A stretch of DNA of 64,000 bases from Leptolyngbyaceae cyanobacterium clean351. Lineage in GTDB: Bacteria > Cyanobacteriota > Cyanobacteriia > DAIDHW01. Location: contig DAIDHW010000001.1 in the NCBI GenBank assembly GCA_027451865.1, positions 969,530 to 1,033,529 on the forward strand. Direction: 5' to 3'. Positions within the stretch are counted from its first letter, which is position 1. Each line of letters starts with the position of its first letter. Shown one piece after another: positions 1,750-11,507 of this stretch. The position numbers and the translations under genes are program-made. The notes beneath the pieces were generated by a model. The model was not told the DNA's origin and searched no databases. It worked only from the letters and a program-made list of their open reading frames with translations.

Positions 1750-2223
1750 ATGTTGAGCCGCTTGAGGCATCTGCAGGTGGAGACAGAAGGCCGTTACGCC
1801 ACTGATGAAGAACTAAAGTTCATCCTGGATTACGTTCACTCCTTCAGGCTGCGCCGGGACACCTACATTAGATTGCAGGCTGCTGAGTCAGACATAGTCA
1901 AGGAAGTCCAAGAAAGACTTCAGGCCAAGCATCCTGAGCTGCTGCGCAGTGGCACCAACGACTTGACCACCAAGTGGCAGCGAGACACCCAACGGGTCTT
2001 AAAGCTAACAGCCCTCGCTTTGCTCCTAGACGACGCTACAACCCTGCGTGAGGTGTTTTTGTACTGGTTTCAAACTATCATGAAGGCATTTAAGGCTCAA
2101 ACCAGTTGTGATGTCACCTACCTGACCATGCAGGAGGTAATTAAGAAACGTTTCACGATTACCGAGGCTAGCCTGATCTGCCCGCTGCTGGAGTTAAACC
2201 GTACCCTCCTTGGCTGTCCCTGA
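1750..2223 (+). CDS. Phycobiliprotein-like (globin-fold) protein without chromophore cysteine, copy 1
   Basis: 157 residues, mostly helical. The layout follows allophycocyanin-type subunits: an N-terminal RYATDEEL segment, the helix pair ending in VKEVQERLQAKHPELL, then LKLTALALLLDD where phycobiliproteins have the B/E-helix region. The chromophore-binding Cys of the CxRD motif is absent, so this is probably an unpigmented relative. It is followed 32 bp later by a V4R gene; the same pair recurs at 3215/3717, suggesting tandem duplication of a two-gene unit. Slr0146 of Synechocystis is the closest gene I can name by context. Confidence 0.65.
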   Translation: MLSRLRHLQVETEGRYATDEELKFILDYVHSFRLRRDTYIRLQAAESDIVKEVQERLQAKHPELLRSGTNDLTTKWQRDTQRVLKLTALALLLDDATTLREVFLYWFQTIMKAFKAQTSCDVTYLTMQEVIKKRFTITEASLICPLLELNRTLLGCP

Positions 2224-2255
2224 ATTTCTACCCCTACCTCTAATAGGCCTTAACT

Positions 2256-2927
2256 ATGGTTGCCACTGGACATCGTCTTAAAACCAAGTATCCCAAAAAG
2301 CATAACCACTACGGGTTTCGTGACTTCTTTCAATTTGACCCCCAGGTGGGCACTATTACTGACTGGATGGACAACCGCAATGTGTTGGCCAGCGAAGACT
2401 TTATTATCGGGTTGGTGGCGGGCCTAGAGGAGGAAGTAGGTGACGCATCGGCAGCGATTATGTATACTATCGGCTGCGAGTGGGGCCTGAAGGATGCTGC
2501 CTGCTTTAGCCAGTGGTTTGAGGCCGAGTTTGACCGCAGCATCCGCCAAACTAACCTAATGTTTTTGCTTGAGACCTGGTGGTGGCCTTTTACCTCCCAG
2601 GGGTGGGGCCGGTGGGAAGTGGACATGGGCGACCGCAAGCAAGGCTTCATGTTCATCAACCTCTTTGACTCAGCGGTGGCCCGGACCTTAGGAGACGTAG
2701 GTAAGCCCGTGTGTTACATCTACGCTGGTTTGTTTGCCGGCTTTTTCACCGAACTAGTCCGCAAGCGCCTCAGCTGTATTGAGATCCAGTGCTACTCCAT
2801 GGGAGAAACCTACTGTAAGTTCCTCCTCGGGGGCCAAGAGCGGATCGATGCCGCTGCCTTTTGGCTCAATGAAGGGGCGACAGCGGGGGACATTGAACGC
2901 CGTCTACAGGCAGGAGACCAGCCGTGA
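2256..2927 (+). CDS. V4R-domain protein, copy 1 (Slr0144/Slr0147-like)
   Basis: 223 residues. The C-terminal 150 form a 4-vinyl-reductase (V4R) domain, recognisable by the final part with C-x4-C-x7-C spacing in CIEIQCYSMGETYC followed by FLLGG. V4R domains bind small hydrophobic ligands or metals and occur in bacteriochlorophyll biosynthesis protein BchJ and in the PSII-assembly operon of cyanobacteria. The stop codon overlaps the GTG start of the next gene by four bases (GTGA), indicating translational coupling. I infer a role in handling chlorophyll or its precursors during PSII assembly. Confidence 0.8.
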   Translation: MVATGHRLKTKYPKKHNHYGFRDFFQFDPQVGTITDWMDNRNVLASEDFIIGLVAGLEEEVGDASAAIMYTIGCEWGLKDAACFSQWFEAEFDRSIRQTNLMFLLETWWWPFTSQGWGRWEVDMGDRKQGFMFINLFDSAVARTLGDVGKPVCYIYAGLFAGFFTELVRKRLSCIEIQCYSMGETYCKFLLGGQERIDAAAFWLNEGATAGDIERRLQAGDQP

Positions 2928-3193
2928 ACACCTTCAGTGCCCAACAGGCGGATATGACTGTGGCCGACTTTTTCCGCCAGGTGAATTGGGAAAACCACCC
3001 CCCGGCGGTTCAGCAGTTGAAGCAGGCACTCTTTGATGCCGACCAGCCGCCGAGTCTACTCCTGCCGGTATGCGACTTTTTCAGTACCTTCCCCTGGGAA
3101 GGCGCAGTCGCTAGGTCCACTCCGGTTGCTCCGGCGCTGCCATCTCCAGGTACTCCCAACGTGACCTTAGAAGACTTTTCCAGCTTTTTTTGA
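2924..3193 (+). CDS. Small conserved protein of the PSII-assembly operon (Slr0145-like)
   Basis: 89 residues starting at a GTG that overlaps the TGA of the upstream V4R gene. It has an acidic, amphipathic N-terminal helix with a VNWEN segment, a Pro-rich middle, and ends in the aromatic tail DFSSFF. I recognise no catalytic motif. Its position between V4R copy 1 and phycobiliprotein-like copy 2 matches the small gene slr0145 of Synechocystis; the function is unknown and may be as an adaptor. Confidence 0.65.
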   Translation: MNTFSAQQADMTVADFFRQVNWENHPPAVQQLKQALFDADQPPSLLLPVCDFFSTFPWEGAVARSTPVAPALPSPGTPNVTLEDFSSFF

Positions 3194-3214
3194 CCAGCCA
3201 GAGAGAGAAAAACC

Positions 3215-3694
3215 GTGAGCAAAACCATCACTGAACTATTCAATGAGGCGGAGAACCGTTACCTCCAACCTGAGGAGCTGCAGGCCCTGAGCGGTTACGT
3301 AGATTCGCTGCCTGTGCGCCTTGACGTCTACAAACGCCTGCGTGACCAAGAGGCACCTTTAATGCAAAAGGTAGCCGATCAGCTCCAAGGCTCTCTGCCT
3401 CAAGAGCCGGTCTCTAACATAGAACGTAGTCTTAAGCAGGCTCTGTTGCTCCTGCGCACCTGTGCCATGGCGATGCTGCTAGATGATGAAGCCCTAGTCG
3501 AGGAGAAACTGGTGACCTGGACGAGAAAGATGGTGCAAGCCTACGGTACTCAGCAGATCAACCGCGTCCTGTACCGGCTGCTGCAAGAAAATCTCCAGAC
3601 CTTGTTTGTGGCCTCGGACTTGGCCTTACTCGAGCGACCCATGACTCAAGCCGAGTCGGCATTTATTGGCGAGCAGCCCCCCGCTAGTTCCTAG
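3215..3694 (+). CDS. Phycobiliprotein-like protein without chromophore cysteine, copy 2
   Basis: 159 residues from a GTG with upstream GAGAGAG. It follows the allophycocyanin subunit pattern: RYLQPEELQALSGYV, then LRDQEAPLMQKVADQL, then LLRTCAMAMLLDDEAL, which lines up with the helix that reads like LRLVTYAMLAGD in allophycocyanins. The Cys in RTCAM falls in that later helix and not at the chromophore site, so no bilin attachment is predicted. It resembles the copy at 1750 in length and layout, but the two have diverged strongly. It is followed by V4R copy 2. Confidence 0.65.
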   Translation: MSKTITELFNEAENRYLQPEELQALSGYVDSLPVRLDVYKRLRDQEAPLMQKVADQLQGSLPQEPVSNIERSLKQALLLLRTCAMAMLLDDEALVEEKLVTWTRKMVQAYGTQQINRVLYRLLQENLQTLFVASDLALLERPMTQAESAFIGEQPPASS

Positions 3695-3716
3695 TCCTCA
3701 CCAAGGGTATTTATCC

Positions 3717-4373
3717 ATGATTTCCGTCGCTGACCTGTTTACGGACGACCGCATTCCTGGCAACTACTTTGCTACGGATACCTACCTGAAAAGTGACCTA
3801 GAGCTAGGGATTATCGAAAACCGAGCCGGGTCAAGACTATTGGCTCTGCCTGCCCCGCTGATCGAAGCCATCTACAGCGGCCTAGAGAAGGAAACCGGCC
3901 AGGCTACTTCCCTAGTCCTTTCCAATTGTGGCCGGTGGTGGGGGAGGAACTTCTACAAGCGTTTCTGCGCCGAGTTGGGAGACTACTACAGCACCGCCGT
4001 CTCCGACATGCCCATGGTGGAGTTTCTCCAAGCCCTAGAGGAGTGTTGGCGTGTGCACGGCTGGGGGAGGATAGAAATAGACCAAAGCTACCATGGTAAA
4101 GGGTTTTTACTCGTTTACATCACCAACTCCCCCTTTGCCGCCCTCGCCAACGTTAAAGGAAAGAATGTCTGCGCCCTAGAGGCGGGGGTGTTGACCTCAT
4201 TTTTTTGTGAGATCACAGGAAAGGACATCACCTGTATAGAGCTAGCCTGTGAGTGTGCAGGGGCAGAAAGAAACTGCTTTGTGGTGGGGCTAAGTAAGCG
4301 TCTGCAGGGAGTAGATCTGATGTTGGAACAGCATCAAACTCCCACAGAAATCCTGGAAAATTTGACTGCCTAA
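3717..4373 (+). CDS. V4R-domain protein, copy 2 (Slr0147-like)
   Basis: 218 residues from the ATG at 3717, which gives the start MISVADLFTDD; an in-frame start at 3666 would overlap the previous gene. The V4R signature is at the C-terminus, with paired cysteines in CIELACECAGAERNCF. It shares a tryptophan-rich middle (the region around GRWWGRN and HGWGRIEID) with copy 1 at 2256. This is the second unit of the phycobiliprotein-like plus V4R pair. The next gene is the SpkG-type kinase 34 bp downstream. Confidence 0.8.
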   Translation: MISVADLFTDDRIPGNYFATDTYLKSDLELGIIENRAGSRLLALPAPLIEAIYSGLEKETGQATSLVLSNCGRWWGRNFYKRFCAELGDYYSTAVSDMPMVEFLQALEECWRVHGWGRIEIDQSYHGKGFLLVYITNSPFAALANVKGKNVCALEAGVLTSFFCEITGKDITCIELACECAGAERNCFVVGLSKRLQGVDLMLEQHQTPTEILENLTA

Positions 4374-4407: not shown

Positions 4408-6183
4408 GTGAACAAGCCTACAATCCACCACCGGCGATCTCAGTACCGCCTGCTCGGTGTAGTGGGTCAAGGCCAGTTTGGCCGCGTCTTCTGTGCCAGT
4501 CATCGCCACAGTGGTCAGATTGTGGCCCTGAAGTGCCTTGAGCACGAACGCTTCTCCACCCATAATTTTCTCCGGGAGTTGCGCTTCCTTCTAGGTCTGC
4601 AACACCCCAACATCGTCCCCTGTTACGCCCTTGAGCACACTTCTACTGCCCGCTACCTGGTAATGGACTACGCAGAGGGGGGGACTTTGCGTACCTTGCT
4701 AGAGAGCAACTGCGGTCTCAACCTTGGTCAAGGCCTAAAATTACTTTTGGACATCCTCGCCGGCCTAGGTCATGCCCATGGCCAGGGGATTGTTCACTGT
4801 GACATTAAACCAGAAAACATTCTCATCAATGTCCATCCCTACGGCTGGACAGCGCGCCTCTCAGATTTTGGCATTGCCCGGTTACTCCAGGACTCCTCAC
4901 GCCTTGCCGGCGGGGCTACGGGTTCCCCTGCCTACATGGCTCCGGAGCGCTTCTACGGCGAGTATTCTCCGGCCTCCGACGTCTACGCTGTCGGTATCCT
5001 GCTGTACGAAATTCTGGTAGGTAGTCGCCCCTTTGCCGGTACACCGGGTGAGCTGATGGCAGCCCATCTCAACGAAGTCTTGACTATACCCCTCTCGGTA
5101 CCCCCCCCCCTAGGTAAGGTGCTCACCAAGTCCCTGCGCAAGTTACCGGGACAAAGGTTTCACACAGCTGAGGAAATGAGCACGGCAGTCCAGCAGGTTA
5201 TGAGTCAATTGTCGGCTAGCACCCTCCACAACCTCCTGCACCGGCTGCCTGCTGCCTCGGCCTGCCCGCCAGTAATTATTCTGCAGCAATCCCTTGACCA
5301 GCCTGTGAATAAGGTCATCCCTAGTTTTTCGCCCACTGGCATAGCCTGGGCCGCCGGGCCTAAGCTGACTTGGATTCTGCTCAATGAGGCCTCAAAAGCC
5401 ACCATCCTACGTGAACCAATTGTGGATGTGTGGGGATGTCCGGACCGCTACCTGATTGCCACTGACCAGGGTTTATACCACTGGAAACCAGGGTCTGTGG
5501 CTCGACAGGTGTTGAGCTTACCCCCCCACTGTCAGGTGGTGGTAGAACCCCGGGGGGATTGGTTTGCTACCTTCTCGCCGACTGGAAGTAAGGGGGCTAC
5601 GTTAAGGTTCTGGAAATCAGCCGATCTAGGAGCACCGCCAGTCATAGCTACCCTCCCCAGGATACCGAGGAGCTACCTACTAGTCCCAGACCGCCGGCAC
5701 CTGGTAATCCTCACGGCCAAGACAGCCCGCCCCGGGGAGGCAACTCCCAGCCCTGGGATGATCCTGAGACTTTACAATCGGCGGGGCCAGTACCTGGGCA
5801 GCTGGTCCTTGCCGGTCCTCCTCGAGAAGCTTGTTTTGAGTTACCGTGACTATCGGTTACTGGGCACAGACCCCCTCAACCCCTATTGCGTTGTGATAGT
5901 GGACTTGAAGCCCTTCCGGATTCGTCGCCTCTACCTAGGTTTCTTGCCTGTGGTCCTAGCAGCCCTCCCCTGGGGGTTTGCCTTAGCCAATCCTGAGGGA
6001 GCAATTAGCCTATTTGACAACTACGGGGAATCTGTAGGCCAGATCGTTTGGCCGACACCAGTCACCATTACTAGCATCAGTGCCCTAGACGCCCAAACTC
6101 TGGTAGTAGGGACCTGGGACAGTCGCCATGGCTTGCTCCACTGGCTAGACCTCAAGCGAATGGGTCTAGACTTGGTGTTTTAA
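4408..6183 (+). CDS. spkG: Serine/threonine protein kinase SpkG-like with C-terminal propeller-like domain
   Basis: 591 residues from GTG. The N-terminal kinase domain (about 13-270) is complete: glycine loop G20-x-G22-x2-G25, K42, the catalytic loop HCDIKPEN with D132, DFG at 153-155 and APE at 178-180. Residues 290-591 look like a beta-propeller, with repeated strand-turn-strand units and many W/D residues. SpkG (Slr0152) closes the homologous Synechocystis operon, so this kinase probably signals on PSII assembly or high-salt response. A run of ten C at 5101-5110 lies inside the gene. The last 265 bp are duplicated at 10689-10953, flanking the island downstream. Confidence 0.85.
   Translation: MNKPTIHHRRSQYRLLGVVGQGQFGRVFCASHRHSGQIVALKCLEHERFSTHNFLRELRFLLGLQHPNIVPCYALEHTSTARYLVMDYAEGGTLRTLLESNCGLNLGQGLKLLLDILAGLGHAHGQGIVHCDIKPENILINVHPYGWTARLSDFGIARLLQDSSRLAGGATGSPAYMAPERFYGEYSPASDVYAVGILLYEILVGSRPFAGTPGELMAAHLNEVLTIPLSVPPPLGKVLTKSLRKLPGQRFHTAEEMSTAVQQVMSQLSASTLHNLLHRLPAASACPPVIILQQSLDQPVNKVIPSFSPTGIAWAAGPKLTWILLNEASKATILREPIVDVWGCPDRYLIATDQGLYHWKPGSVARQVLSLPPHCQVVVEPRGDWFATFSPTGSKGATLRFWKSADLGAPPVIATLPRIPRSYLLVPDRRHLVILTAKTARPGEATPSPGMILRLYNRRGQYLGSWSLPVLLEKLVLSYRDYRLLGTDPLNPYCVVIVDLKPFRIRRLYLGFLPVVLAALPWGFALANPEGAISLFDNYGESVGQIVWPTPVTITSISALDAQTLVVGTWDSRHGLLHWLDLKRMGLDLVF
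5919..6183 (+). repeat. Direct repeat, copy 1: 3' end of spkG
   Basis: The final 265 bp of spkG, including the stop codon, recur without gaps at 10689-10953. I count about two dozen mismatches by eye (roughly 91% identity), many at third codon positions, which suggests both copies were under protein-level selection or come from different strains. The two copies bracket the AT-rich three-gene island. Confidence 0.9.
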
Positions 6184-6270
6184 TCCTTTGTGTTGGCATA
6201 GAGGGTAACTGGCAGCAAAAATCGCGTGATAATGACTAGTCTCTTTTAGAAAAAATTCAGACTTCTTTAC

Positions 6271-6299
6271 TTGCAATTACAGGTGAATGAATGTATTAT
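6271..6299 (+). promoter_or_regulatory. Putative sigma-70-type promoter for the island
   Basis: TTGCAA at 6271-6276 and TATTAT at 6294-6299 are separated by 17 bp. It lies just downstream of spkG, reads towards the three-gene island starting at 6562, and sits in AT-rich sequence. The 6184-6561 stretch holds otherwise only the open fragment at 6344. Confidence 0.4.
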
Positions 6300-6343
6300 G
6301 GAGTTCAAGGGAATTAGGAGTGTTGAAAGGAAGCTCAAGGTAG

Positions 6344-6523
6344 AGACAAAAGTGGCAGATACGCGACACTGCCTGGGATGCCTTTGCGCCCCAGTCCAGG
6401 GAGTGGCGTAGGACAATCGCATTTCCTATGCGCCTTACAGTGAGTAACAAAGACCCACGGACTCTTTCTAATCTGGACCAAGTGGCCCAGCGGCTCTCCC
6501 CACCCTGCCCCCTCACTTTCTGA
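6344..6523 (+). pseudogene. Possible coding fragment of unknown origin
   Basis: An open stretch of 59 codons after a TAG, with no start codon near its beginning. It is rich in W, R and Q early (WQIRDTAWDAFAP, then REWRRTIAFP) and ends at TGA 6521. Codon use looks like that of the host chromosome and not of the island. I cannot identify a family. It may be debris from the event that placed the island here, or chance. Confidence 0.2.
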
Positions 6524-6561
6524 AGTATAAAATTTACGTCTAGTTTGAACACTTCCAAGCT

Positions 6562-8226
6562 ATGAAAACTCCTGATATTGGCTTGTCTTTTGCCCTGTGG
6601 TTGAATCAGGTAAGAAATAGTTTCTTTAAAGAACTAATCCTAAACAAGAGCAATCTTCGACATGTCTCAATTTGGGATATTGGAGAAAGTGGAGGCTTTT
6701 TCCATCATTATGATAGTCAACATGAGAAATATTCTTATACTGATCACGAGTATCCAGCATCTCGGAATCGTAGAATTGAATATTTTCCCGAAGGAGACTT
6801 GCCACTCCATCGCCCAGAAGCCAACAACTTCATCAATAGTTCTCAGCAGTATCCTTTATTGGGTACTTCTCAAATCAAAACATGCTTCATTTGTCGTGGA
6901 TCAGGTCGTATTCCATGTAGGAGCTGCGGTGGGAGAGGCAGATCCACTTCAATTAACTCGAAAGGGAAATTTAAAAGAGATACTTGTCTAAGGTGTAGAG
7001 GAACTGGAAACGTAAGATGTGAGCGCTGTAGTGGGGAAGGGAAGCTCCTAACCTATACTTCCAAAGATTATATTTGGAAACATACAACTGATCGTGAGCC
7101 GATTATTTTGCCAATTATAGATCGTCCCAATGTACGAAGCTTAATCACCACGACTCATAGTAAAGGGGGATCATATCCAGTTGATGAGTTTACCCAAGAG
7201 GAGATTATTAAAAAAATAGGGGTATATAACGAGCGAATTGGCGCTTTAGTGCGACACGCAAATGACCAGGCTATAAGAAAAGAAGAGGAGATTAAGCAAC
7301 GCTTTGGCACGCTTTTATTCCAAGAACATTCTTGTTTCTATATTCCTTTAGGGTTTGTAAATTTATTTGTTAATCACAAATTTCGTCAGTTTTTCGTTGC
7401 CGGTAATCTAACTTATAGACGTACCCTTAGTCCACCTGTAGGCTGGAATCTTTTTAAACTACTGGGGTGGTTTGCGATTGGAGTTGCGCTCAGTTTATAC
7501 AGTTCTGTCTTAATGAAGCGTGAACTCGCTATTATAGCTATCTTAATTAGCTTGGGAGTATTGCAGTTTATTCTTGACTTCCTCTTGCAATGGCCCAGAA
7601 CCTGGCTTATATTTGATGATGATGGTTTAGGGGGGTGGTTATTCGTACATTTACTGGTTCAGTCAATTAGTCTCAGTCGCAAAGGGAAGTTATTAGATCC
7701 CTGCTACACTGAACTCTTTCATCTTCCCCAAATCGATACTTACAAATCACGTAATTCTTTTTTTTGCACCATAGAAACCGGAAAGGGAAAGCAGCGACAG
7801 AACACTGAACTTTTTCTGGTTAGTCAACGTGCTCTTAGTTTATTTAATCAAGATCTTCAAAAAATTACTCAAAGAATTCAAACCTTAGTTTGGGTAATAC
7901 AGCAACTTGACGCTGCCCAAACAGATGGATTAATTGCAGATTTTCTCAAGGTTCAATCTCCTGAAATCCGCAAACGGATTCACCTGATTCTAGTTACTGA
8001 TAAACCTGTATTTATTTCATCAGTTACGGAATTATCTCAAACTCATCAATACCTGAATCCCCAGCAAATTAGTTTATACTCTCTCTCCTTGCTACAAGCG
8101 TTTCAAGAATTGCAGGATGGGCAGCAGGGTCCAGAGACAGAAACAACTCTTAAAATGCTCCTAGAAGTGGTAGAACTACCACAAAAAGAGATGCATTCTA
8201 ATTCAGGTAAGGGATCTGAATATTGA
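6562..8226 (+). CDS. Zinc-finger (DnaJ-type CxxC) protein with two membrane segments, island gene 1
   Basis: 554 residues, AT-rich compared with its surroundings. Four CxxC knuckles at C108/C111, C119/C122, C142/C145 and C153/C156, with CRGSG and CRGTG spacing, match the zinc-binding domain of DnaJ, but there is no J domain. Two hydrophobic segments at about 298-316 and 322-343 predict a membrane hairpin. The C-terminal 200 residues are soluble and helical. It is followed 37 bp later by the GTPase gene. I know of no named homologue; it may be a membrane-bound partner or sensor for the GTPase. Confidence 0.8.
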   Translation: MKTPDIGLSFALWLNQVRNSFFKELILNKSNLRHVSIWDIGESGGFFHHYDSQHEKYSYTDHEYPASRNRRIEYFPEGDLPLHRPEANNFINSSQQYPLLGTSQIKTCFICRGSGRIPCRSCGGRGRSTSINSKGKFKRDTCLRCRGTGNVRCERCSGEGKLLTYTSKDYIWKHTTDREPIILPIIDRPNVRSLITTTHSKGGSYPVDEFTQEEIIKKIGVYNERIGALVRHANDQAIRKEEEIKQRFGTLLFQEHSCFYIPLGFVNLFVNHKFRQFFVAGNLTYRRTLSPPVGWNLFKLLGWFAIGVALSLYSSVLMKRELAIIAILISLGVLQFILDFLLQWPRTWLIFDDDGLGGWLFVHLLVQSISLSRKGKLLDPCYTELFHLPQIDTYKSRNSFFCTIETGKGKQRQNTELFLVSQRALSLFNQDLQKITQRIQTLVWVIQQLDAAQTDGLIADFLKVQSPEIRKRIHLILVTDKPVFISSVTELSQTHQYLNPQQISLYSLSLLQAFQELQDGQQGPETETTLKMLLEVVELPQKEMHSNSGKGSEY

Positions 8227-8263
8227 GATTAGCAGTAAACCTTCTTACTTAAAGGGAGAAACT

Positions 8264-9211
8264 ATGAAACTAGATCCGGAATTTAAACGATACAAAGGTA
8301 TCCTGGGACAAGTTCTTTATCGCCTTGGCTTCATAGAGAAAAGCCTTAACATACCACTTTTTGGAGTGAAGGGTGCTGGAAAGAGTTATTTTCTTTTCTC
8401 ACTGGGCATGTTCCTTGCCCATCCACTGCGGAAATTGGGTAAGCCAGAAGGTCTTTCTGAAGATCTTCTCAATGGTTATTGGGCAGAGATATTAAAAGGC
8501 AACGTGATCTCAATTACGCAAGGTAAATTTGATGTGGATTTATTGGTCAGACAAGTTTACTCTGGCGATCATGAAGTTGCAGTAGAACGGCAAGCCTACT
8601 TCGAGTCTGGTGTAATAGATTGGTATCATAATCTTGATGATGTAGAACAGCCTGCAACTAATTCAGATAAGTTGGCTACTCGGATCTTTCTACGTACAAA
8701 TGACATTTCCGGTCAGGAATTCACGTCGGCAATGGAGCGGTTACGTGAGCCGACCACGGAGTTGGGAGGTGATCCAATGACTGGGAAATTTATTCAAGTC
8801 GTGCGAGATGGAGATGGCTGTGTCATGATTATTGATCTAGTTCGAGTGAATTTGACAGCAGAACAATACAAAAAAGATCGTGCAAGATATATTCGGGAAG
8901 CCTTAGGAGAGCAGTTGGTTCCATTAGCCAGGGGGCTAGAACTTGCCCTGAGAAATCAGCGTGATCCCAAAAGACGCTATCCTCTATTCTTGGTATTTCC
9001 AAAACGAGATATTCATGGATTGAACAGTCAAGATTTAACTGACTTATTTCAGCGTATGTTCGCCATGACTATTGCCCGTCTGGAGGAAAAAATCTCTATC
9101 CATGTTCATTCCATCCAAAATATGGGGTTTGAGGAAGACGAAAATGGTGATCTTAAGTTTTCCCGTGGTTTAGGACAATTCTTGGCATCTGTTTACTCAG
9201 TCTTTCGTTAA
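8264..9211 (+). CDS. P-loop GTPase-like protein, island gene 2
   Basis: 315 residues, preceded by AAAGGGAGAA. GTPase motifs can be read in order: G1 at G34-V-K-G-A-G-K40-S41, a G3-like DISGQE at 147-152, and a G4-like PKRD after a hydrophobic strand (K247, D249). A strand ending in CVMIIDL lies between G3 and G4. This is the layout of TRAFAC-type GTPases found in predicted bacterial conflict systems (the double-GTPase group), but the exact family needs a profile search. It lies between the zinc-finger membrane protein and island gene 3 with short gaps, so the three probably form one operon. Confidence 0.75.
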   Translation: MKLDPEFKRYKGILGQVLYRLGFIEKSLNIPLFGVKGAGKSYFLFSLGMFLAHPLRKLGKPEGLSEDLLNGYWAEILKGNVISITQGKFDVDLLVRQVYSGDHEVAVERQAYFESGVIDWYHNLDDVEQPATNSDKLATRIFLRTNDISGQEFTSAMERLREPTTELGGDPMTGKFIQVVRDGDGCVMIIDLVRVNLTAEQYKKDRARYIREALGEQLVPLARGLELALRNQRDPKRRYPLFLVFPKRDIHGLNSQDLTDLFQRMFAMTIARLEEKISIHVHSIQNMGFEEDENGDLKFSRGLGQFLASVYSVFR

Positions 9212-9247
9212 ATTACAGTTTACCTTCTTGTATCGGAGAATTTAAGC

Positions 9248-10222
9248 ATGAATAAAAATCGATTTCAGGCTGAACTTCTATCTGCAGCGCACATTGACTA
9301 TCAAGTCAAAGTTCAGTACATTGGGAATTTTCCCTCAGAGTTATCATCTATCCTTTTAACGGGAGCGTTCCCCCTTAGTCCTTCACCTAATTCTACAGAC
9401 GTTGAAGGTCTTAAAATCTTCACCTTCAGGCAACGTTATCTTTGCTTTTGTTGGTTTTTCCAGGCAGGTCGTCAAGATGAGCGGGGTAGGCATACTAGCT
9501 CATCGCGAGTGTTAGTGTTCCCTTTAGATATTTGGCAAGGGCTAATTCCGACACTTGCAGATGTAAGGGAATGGTTGAAGCATCATGACGTGGAAAATAT
9601 GACAGATAATCAATTCTACGAAGCAGTCTGTTCATTAGAGAATACAAGCCTGTCATCAGATCTGGTTAAAAAGGCTCAGCAGGTCACATGGTTTCCATAT
9701 CTATTAGCCAAGTTGATACAGCAGAAGCACGCCACCATTATTGCATCTACACATGCTGAGGCTTTATCTTGGCTTGAAATTTTGTGGTACTACACTCCTG
9801 ACTTTCTCCGATTGAAAATAGAATGGTGTACCTATATTTGGTCCCTGCGAACGGATCATGAAGAAGTTGTTGCTGCTGCTGGTCAGGTTGAGCTACCTCC
9901 GAGGCCATCTCTTCTGAAAAGGTTATTCAAGAATTCTACACGAGAAGAATCAGAATTTCGATTTGATGTTGTACAAGGAATCTCGTCACACCAAATGAAG
10001 GATCTTGATCTGAAACCCTTAGAATGGCTTTGTCAGGAGTTGGTTCGGCAAGAGAGTTGGCAGGGTTTGGAAGTAGATAAGAAACATATATTTATTGCTG
10101 AATCATTAGAGCGCCTGTCCTGTAATCCACGCATCAAACTGTCTAGCCTTATATCTGGCTACCCAGCCAGTCCTAAGTTGATAGAATTCTCCAATTTACT
10201 TAGTCGAAAGAACCCTGATTAA
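9248..10222 (+). CDS. Island gene 3, possible GTPase-associated adaptor (GAP1-N-like)
   Basis: 324 residues, 36 bp after the GTPase gene with GGAGAA upstream. The N-terminal 95 residues contain CFCWFFQAGRQDERGRHTSS leading into a VLVFP strand. A GRxDxRGR motif before a hydrophobic strand is what I remember of the N-terminal domain of GTPase-associated protein 1 in conflict islands. That match is from memory and weak. Residues 110-324 are helical and without recognised motifs. Low G+C like its two partners. Confidence 0.6.
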   Translation: MNKNRFQAELLSAAHIDYQVKVQYIGNFPSELSSILLTGAFPLSPSPNSTDVEGLKIFTFRQRYLCFCWFFQAGRQDERGRHTSSSRVLVFPLDIWQGLIPTLADVREWLKHHDVENMTDNQFYEAVCSLENTSLSSDLVKKAQQVTWFPYLLAKLIQQKHATIIASTHAEALSWLEILWYYTPDFLRLKIEWCTYIWSLRTDHEEVVAAAGQVELPPRPSLLKRLFKNSTREESEFRFDVVQGISSHQMKDLDLKPLEWLCQELVRQESWQGLEVDKKHIFIAESLERLSCNPRIKLSSLISGYPASPKLIEFSNLLSRKNPD

Positions 10223-10471
10223 CTGTTCTTCAGGAATTGAGAATTACTCATATTCAGGTTGACGTAATGGTTTGAGTGTTGTGGAAGCTATCACCCGGCC
10301 AATTAATGCTCTCCTCCGAAAGTCGACTACCTCCAACCAGATCGCCATAAAAATTCTCGGTACAATACAGCATCGTAAGTCTACAGTTGCTATCAAGCTT
10401 CTCAGTGTCCTTGTCTAACTTCACTGCAGATGGGGACGACCCGCTCTACACCCTTTGCCCAGGCTCTATTA

Positions 10472-10688
10472 GTTATTTGGACGCACCACCCGTAACCGGC
10501 CAGTGTTATCACCTCCTAGACATCTTCTAGTTTTAGTCCCAGTAGTTTGCCATGATGTAGCCCTGTCTCCCGCAGTAGCATGAATTGAGACACCCCTGCA
10601 CCAGGCGGATGACTTCCTCGCCGCGGAGGAAACCGCCCCGCTTACCCCAGCCGTGGGCCAGCCGGGTAAATTGCTTATCATCAATCCA
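10472..10688 (-). pseudogene. Decayed tyrosine recombinase (integrase) relic
   Basis: On the minus strand three frame-shifted pieces line up with the core of XerC/D-type recombinases: GGFLRGEEVIRLVQGC (like the FLTPEEV helix), then LLRETGLHHGKLLGLKLEDV (like the TGLR-x-SEL-LGL-x-x-EDV segment carrying the first catalytic Arg), then TGRLRVVRP. Here the arginine position of TGLR reads H, and there are at least two frameshifts and no C-terminal HxxR or Tyr box, so it is dead. It lies directly next to the second copy of the spkG 3' end, as expected for an integrase at an attachment site. Confidence 0.5.
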
Positions 10689-10953
10689 GATTCGCCACCT
10701 CTACCTGGGCTTCCTGCCCGTAGTCCTAGCAGCCCTCCCACGGGGGTTTGCCTTAGCCAATCCTGAGGGGGCAATTAGCCTATTTGACAACTACGGGGAA
10801 TCTGTCGGCCAGATAGTCTGGCCGAAACTAGTCACCATTACTAGCATCAGTGCCCTGGACGCCCAGACTTTGGTAGTAGGAACCTGGTATAGTCACCATG
10901 GCTTGCTCCACTGGCTAGACCTCAGGCGAATGGGTCTAGACTTGGCGTTTTAA
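10689..10953 (+). pseudogene. Second, diverged copy of the spkG 3' end
   Basis: 265 bp matching 5919-6183 with no gaps and about 91% identity, in frame to the stop codon at the same place. The upstream sequence is not homologous to spkG, so this is an isolated 3' fragment. It ends overlapping the stop of mscL on the other strand by four bases; this junction is probably the ancestral spkG-mscL boundary, and the island plus a new spkG 3' end were inserted upstream. Confidence 0.85.
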
Positions 10954-11381
10954 TTCTTGCGCTCCTCAAGGCGCTGGGCCAGACGGTCCAGGGTGGCAGC
11001 GATCCGCTCCTGTAGCAGTAGGTTGGGGTCAGGGGGGGCTTGGGCGGCCTCGAGGGCCTCCTGCCGCCGGAGCCGGCGTTGGGCGGATTCAAAGGCACGA
11101 ATCATGAGAAATATGGAGAAGGCGATGACAACGAAGTTAATCACCGCAGCCAAGAATAACCCGTACTTGATGCCAGCCACCGCCAGGTCATTGAGGTCAT
11201 TAAGGTGCAGACTGGTCAAAACTGGACTGAGAATTGCCGGAGTAATAATGTCGGTGACTAGAGAGTTAATGATCTTGCCAAAGGCCGCGCCGATGATCAC
11301 CGCCACCGCTAAGTCCACTACATTCCCGCGCATCAAGAATTTTTGGAAGTCCCTCCAGAAGCCAGTTGGGTTATTAGTCAT
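10950..11381 (-). CDS. mscL: Large-conductance mechanosensitive channel MscL
   Basis: 143 residues. It starts with FWRDFQKFLMRGNVVDLAVAVIIG, broken here as the amphipathic helix and first membrane span: FLMRGNVVDLAVAVIIGAAF covers the conserved N-terminal part. A second hydrophobic span at about 72-95 and a charged C-terminal coiled helix follow. Forms a pentameric inner-membrane pore that opens on osmotic downshock. Length is normal for the family. Convergent with the spkG 3' fragment. Confidence 0.95.
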   Translation of the reverse strand: MTNNPTGFWRDFQKFLMRGNVVDLAVAVIIGAAFGKIINSLVTDIITPAILSPVLTSLHLNDLNDLAVAGIKYGLFLAAVINFVVIAFSIFLMIRAFESAQRRLRRQEALEAAQAPPDPNLLLQERIAATLDRLAQRLEERKN

Positions 11382-11507
11382 AGAAATCCTCCGAACTAGA
11401 TCAGTACGCCACCAGTCAATTTAGCTGATTTTGGGCGGCCTTGCTAGCCGCGACCCCCGGGGAGCAAGTGCTAGGATCGCAACAGCCCGTTCAACCGCCT
11501 TGGTCCT

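Follow-up and report, generated by a model that had tools for sequence, protein, structure and literature searches.

Analysis of a 64,000-nucleotide stretch of DNA from a Leptolyngbyaceae cyanobacterium (the window) revealed what is left of a tyrosine recombinase gene, encoded on the minus strand (positions 10429–10687). Both tblastn and DNA alignment place the remnant at approximately residues 130–248 of an intact relative that is 370 amino acids in length. With high confidence, we conclude that the gene is dead and that it was originally the leading recombinase gene, of the ginA/tnpA type, in a GInt/Tn554-like unit of four genes. The remnant is an ordinary kind of genomic fossil. It is a mobile-element fossil that was missed by profile libraries and revealed through its intact relative, and it suggests a concrete, though unproven, way in which an isolated cassette of genes could have become fixed in a chromosome. 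The cargo rather than the recombinase might merit a further look.

A preliminary description of this DNA had placed a dead recombinase with an XerC/D core at 10472–10688 on the basis of three translated pieces. Six-frame translation recovered all three, each in its own frame of the minus strand and in the order described. The location was correct; the true span is approximately 10429–10687, owing to a fourth piece that had been missed. The best-kept piece, IDDKQFTRLAHGWGKRGGFLRG (10620–10685), corresponds to residues 130–151 of the relative, with which it shares 86% protein identity; the underlying DNA (10620–10687) aligns to the relative's genome, designated G015, over 68 bases at 82% identity (E 1.4e-12). 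EEVIRLVQGC (10590–10619), identified by tblastn and DNA alignment, continues in the frame of IDDKQFTRLAHGWGKRGGFLRG past an internal deletion of 26 residues. The next piece, MLLRETGLHHGKLLGLKLEDV followed by TAG (10519–10581; tblastn), carries His at the position of the relatives' first catalytic arginine. TGRLRVVRP (10478–10504; six-frame translation and DNA alignment) lies in another frame, and the fourth piece, NRAWAKGVERVVPI (10429–10470; tblastn), returns to the frame of the MLLRETGL piece. All of these pieces are encoded on the minus strand.

The identity of the remnant was established through DNA similarity to an intact gene. When 10223–10690 was compared with 59 genomes (its own and 58 from the same class), the single clear foreign match was to G015, at two places; other foreign matches had E values of 0.001 or worse. 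Both places fall inside an intact gene for the 370-residue protein (L014 5277–6389, minus strand; L015 4367–5479, plus strand), which contains a Phage_integrase domain (PF00589; 2e-30) and an N-terminal SAM-like domain. In tblastn, residues 130–190 of this protein align to window positions 10685–10575 (50.4 bits) and residues 197–248 to 10581–10429 (47.0 bits), which gives two collinear pieces with a joint E of 3.8e-17 in the 64-kb window. These alignments indicate that the remnant is homologous to tyrosine recombinases across the catalytic domain. Because G015 was itself found through a DNA search with the remnant region, the first piece does not count as independent evidence; the second (10429–10581) lies outside the DNA seed and reaches 47 bits by itself. 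Three plasmid-borne relatives, from Anabaena, Nostoc, and Brasilonema (70–71% identity to the G015 protein), also align at both of these places. Profile searches could be taken to favor a chance likeness of unrelated frames to a recombinase: Pfam and NCBIfam returned no match for single remnant pieces, and Pfam reached Phage_integrase at E 0.034 at best when the pieces were concatenated. We assign this explanation a vanishingly small probability. The runner-up match to the G015 recombinase inside the window scores 26.2 bits, the maximum from 100 base shuffles of 10200–10760 is 22.3 bits, and a search of the own genome returned only the same two matches at E≤10 (E 5e-8 and 2e-6 separately). The window and own-genome tblastn scores rule out chance resemblance in practice.

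Comparison with the G015 protein reveals extensive decay. The N-terminal 129 residues are absent up to the edge of an adjoining repeat, 26 residues after FLRG are deleted, the frame changes downstream of this deletion, and a TAG follows LEDV. R205, which we take to be the first catalytic Arg of tyrosine recombinases, is invariant in five of five aligned recombinases and is replaced by His in the remnant. Sequence past residue 248, the region of the other catalytic residues, is missing, and the remnant thus lacks the full catalytic set (Arg, His, Arg, His, Tyr). Loss of the first Arg together with this region marks the remnant as a pseudogene that can make no active enzyme. The view of the region as a dead tyrosine recombinase is therefore upheld, both by two in-order tblastn pieces to one Phage_integrase protein and by the deletions, TAG, frameshifts, and Arg-to-His replacement. 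The own genome contains no further copy of the G015-type recombinase family. The sole Phage_integrase protein that a family search detected there is encoded by an intact gene on contig C7 (L013 919–2061) and is 25% identical to the G015 recombinase.

In G015, the recombinase gene heads a row of four genes that encode proteins of 370, 489, 673, and 306 amino acids; the first three are Phage_integrase proteins and the fourth is a DUF6262 protein. The same quartet is annotated on a plasmid of Anabaena WA102. A Brasilonema plasmid carries a similar gene row, and a Nostoc plasmid record has at least two of the genes. Matches at E up to 1e-60 occur in 9 of 388 cyanobacterial genomes, at 12 places altogether, five of which (in G015 and G062) are mutually 98–100% alike. 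The plasmid records that match the G015 recombinase in tblastn at 60% identity or more number seven, all cyanobacterial. Another 39 records from Enterococcus and 21 from Staphylococcus, all below 60% identity, presumably include Tn554. Tn554 carries two recombinases and TnpC, whereas the units described here combine three recombinases with a DUF6262 protein. By eye, an IS-like extra insertion interrupts the third recombinase gene of the L014 copy, and the third recombinase gene of a G015 element opens with a 204-bp internal repeat (91% identity; L015 6935–7345).

The gene order of these relatives, three tyrosine recombinases in a row followed by a fourth gene, is that of GInts. According to the sections of Bardaji et al. 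(2017, PMC5385486) on which we draw, the first three genes of the GInt operon (ginABCD) encode tyrosine recombinases and the fourth a small protein, GinD, that resembles TnpC of Tn554; all four genes are required for movement of the tested Pseudomonas element. The same sections place the operon at one end of the element with 2.5–70 kb of cargo behind it, describe imperfect direct repeats of 10–17 nt as flanks, and note that GInts often lie at gene ends with their first gene facing the element edge; cyanobacteria are not among the phyla that they name for GInts, and the term itself is absent from the paper (PMC5385486). A TnpA subgroup of tyrosine recombinases has also been described (PMC8138268). 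The window differs from a GInt in that the first gene survives only in part and the other three are unmatched between 5800 and 11100; for this reason, the remnant is at most of GInt type and is not a GInt. The earlier assignment to an XerC/D core stands as far as a tyrosine recombinase is concerned, but the protein is neither an ordinary phage integrase nor XerC/D.

The remnant lies at the edge of a foreign-looking 3.7-kb island of three plus-strand genes, and both remnant and island are located between two copies of a direct repeat of 274 bp. Copy 1 (5915–6188, plus strand) is the intact 3′ end of a serine/threonine protein kinase gene (4408–6183, plus strand; Pfam Pkinase, E 6e-51) and stops 5 bases past the stop codon. 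Copy 2 (10685–10958, plus strand), the same gene end repeated past the island, is displaced and decaying, and the recombinase remnant is truncated by the left edge of this copy. The island genes encode proteins of 554 (gene 1; 6562–8226), 315 (gene 2; 8264–9211), and 324 (gene 3; 9248–10222) amino acids. Their GC content is 0.39–0.42, and that of the segments measured outside the island is 0.51–0.61. An Rfam search of 6100–11400 returned no match.

Gene 1 encodes a candidate DnaJ-like CxxCxGxG zinc finger, for which Pfam returned BSD2_CRD (E 4e-5) and DnaJ_CXXCXGXG (0.0075), both under the cut-off; a membrane region is apparent by eye in this protein. The product of gene 2 appears by eye to be a P-loop protein, and its sole Pfam row up to E 10 is a weak match to DO-GTPase2 (E 0.16; 12.0 bits vs a cut-off of 27). 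The sole Pfam row up to E 10 for gene 3 is a similarly weak match to GAP1-M (E 0.04; 14.6 bits vs a cut-off of 24). In the part of the literature cited here, GAP1 usually lies downstream of a neighboring DO-GTPase gene (PMC7159879), and the island has the same order, with the weak DO-GTPase2 match followed by the adjacent weak GAP1-M match. This pairing of putative domains raises the credibility of the two matches, and the cargo may be a conflict cassette. The gene 1 protein has no detected relatives in 387 other cyanobacterial genomes or the genome contig collection, and the gene 2 protein has none in the same genomes, plasmids, or contig collection; the gene 3 protein was compared with family libraries. 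Searches of the island genes with PADLOC and PHROGs gave weak matches only, all to gene 1, and a sequence search of solved structures returned one row (E 0.95). Structures predicted without relatives for genes 2 and 3 have mean pLDDT values of 36.9 and 40.8, which are too poor for testing the GTPase/GAP1 reading.

How did the island arrive? We consider it close to an even chance, though somewhat short of one, that a GInt-like element brought the three island genes and later lost its partner genes. Such an element would have inserted within the kinase gene or beside it, carrying the three genes as cargo; loss of ginB, ginC, and ginD together with the terminus beyond ginA would then have fixed the cargo in place. 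At the island edge, the remnant has its 5′ end facing away from the cargo, which lies behind it. This orientation matches the published GInt order, and orientation and position fit a GInt edge. An island of 3.7 kb is likewise compatible with GInt cargo, although the operon that would link the two is gone. Against delivery by the recombinase is a mismatch in base composition: the GC content of the remnant is 0.56, compared with 0.39–0.42 for the cargo. No traces of ginB, ginC, or ginD were found between 5800 and 11100, and no element ends were recognized in the window. The 274-bp repeat is unlike the 10–17-nt repeats of GInts. No att repeats of that length were seen; the 274-bp repeat would mask short ones, and the ginA-side end is deleted. 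Moreover, the elements in G015 and G062 (n=5) range from 5.4 to 6.8 kb, approximately the combined size of the four genes, with an extra insertion in the longest. These five close relatives thus have no evident cargo.

The alternative is a bystander role, which we regard as a genuine possibility that nevertheless falls on the improbable side. The remnant would then be left over from an earlier, separate element insertion, and the AT-rich island would have arrived by another route, such as homologous recombination with incoming foreign DNA that terminated in the 3′ end of the kinase gene. The GC content of the remnant equals that of the intact G015 recombinase gene (0.553) and is unlike that of the cargo; the lack of evident cargo in close relatives and truncation of the remnant by the repeat edge point the same way. 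The confinement of remnant and cargo together between the repeat copies and an orientation that suits a cargo-bearing GInt argue for common delivery instead. The preliminary description had credited the recombinase with both the arrival and the fixation of the island. Fixation is in keeping with our results, since a single dead fragment in a genome with no other member of the family rules out movement of the island by this means. As the cause of the island's arrival, the recombinase is plausible but unproven, given the absence of element ends and partner genes, the GC mismatch, and the relatives that have no long repeats.

As had been described, the remnant sits beside a duplicated gene end; it abuts copy 2 and overlaps its left edge by approximately 3 bases. 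The two copies of the repeat are 91% identical, and no third copy exists in the own genome. They differ in 24 codons (15 silent, 9 nonsynonymous), a ratio that rejects the absence of constraint on both copies (P ~1e-3 to 1e-4). Constraint on copy 1 with neutral change in copy 2 is not rejected, with P values of 0.09 to 0.19 on the assumption that copy 2 carries half of the silent and all of the replacement changes. Copy 2 has lost a Trp that is found in 11 of 11 kinase relatives as well as the Leu/Val of the DL(L/V)F end, which indicates that it is the decaying copy; copy 1 keeps the conserved residues.

These features could be explained if integration had restored the gene end: the recombinase would have cleaved the kinase gene at about codon 503, an 88-codon end supplied by the element would have become copy 1, and the displaced native end would be copy 2. 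Prophage e14 and phage 21 provide a precedent at E. coli icd, where a single phage integrase acts and the island is flanked by the intact end of the gene on one side and its displaced duplicate on the other. The island in the window likewise lies between an intact kinase gene end and a displaced copy, but the recombinase here is truncated and belongs to a multi-recombinase family. We consider integration of this type unlikely. It would account for a repeat that reaches 5 bases beyond the stop codon and no further, for conserved residues that are kept in copy 1 and lost in copy 2, and for a recombinase at the inferred crossover edge. However, only about 3 bases are common at the junction, the recombinase is itself truncated there, and the five intact relatives show no such repeats. 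At these elements, which represent at most four independent sites because L038 and L039 share flanks, no long flanking repeat was found among the best three rows per site, the strongest being 15 nt at E 0.07. Applied to the window, this test returned 266 bp. Because the five relatives have no long flanking repeats, the recombinase family alone does not explain the 274-bp duplication. Considering also that its edge cuts the recombinase gene, the repeat appears to be a separate or later product; possible origins are an older gene duplication, insertion by homology, or an attachment region that included the end of the gene. These elements can be combined into one scenario, in which a cyanobacterial GInt, now decayed, would have brought an orphan conflict cassette of the DO-GTPase/GAP1-like kind and its DnaJ-type zinc-finger partner into the kinase gene end, replaced that end with a new one, and become locked in by loss of recombination genes; as a whole, this sequence of events is quite improbable.

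As for an uninterrupted counterpart of this site, the closest full-length relatives of the kinase are approximately 48% identical, and mscL was a neighbor of the kinase gene at none of the 11 kinase loci examined. Upstream of the kinase gene, the region 1750–4373 contains an apparent tandem duplication by eye (1750–2223 with 3215–3694, and 2256–2927 with 3666–4373).
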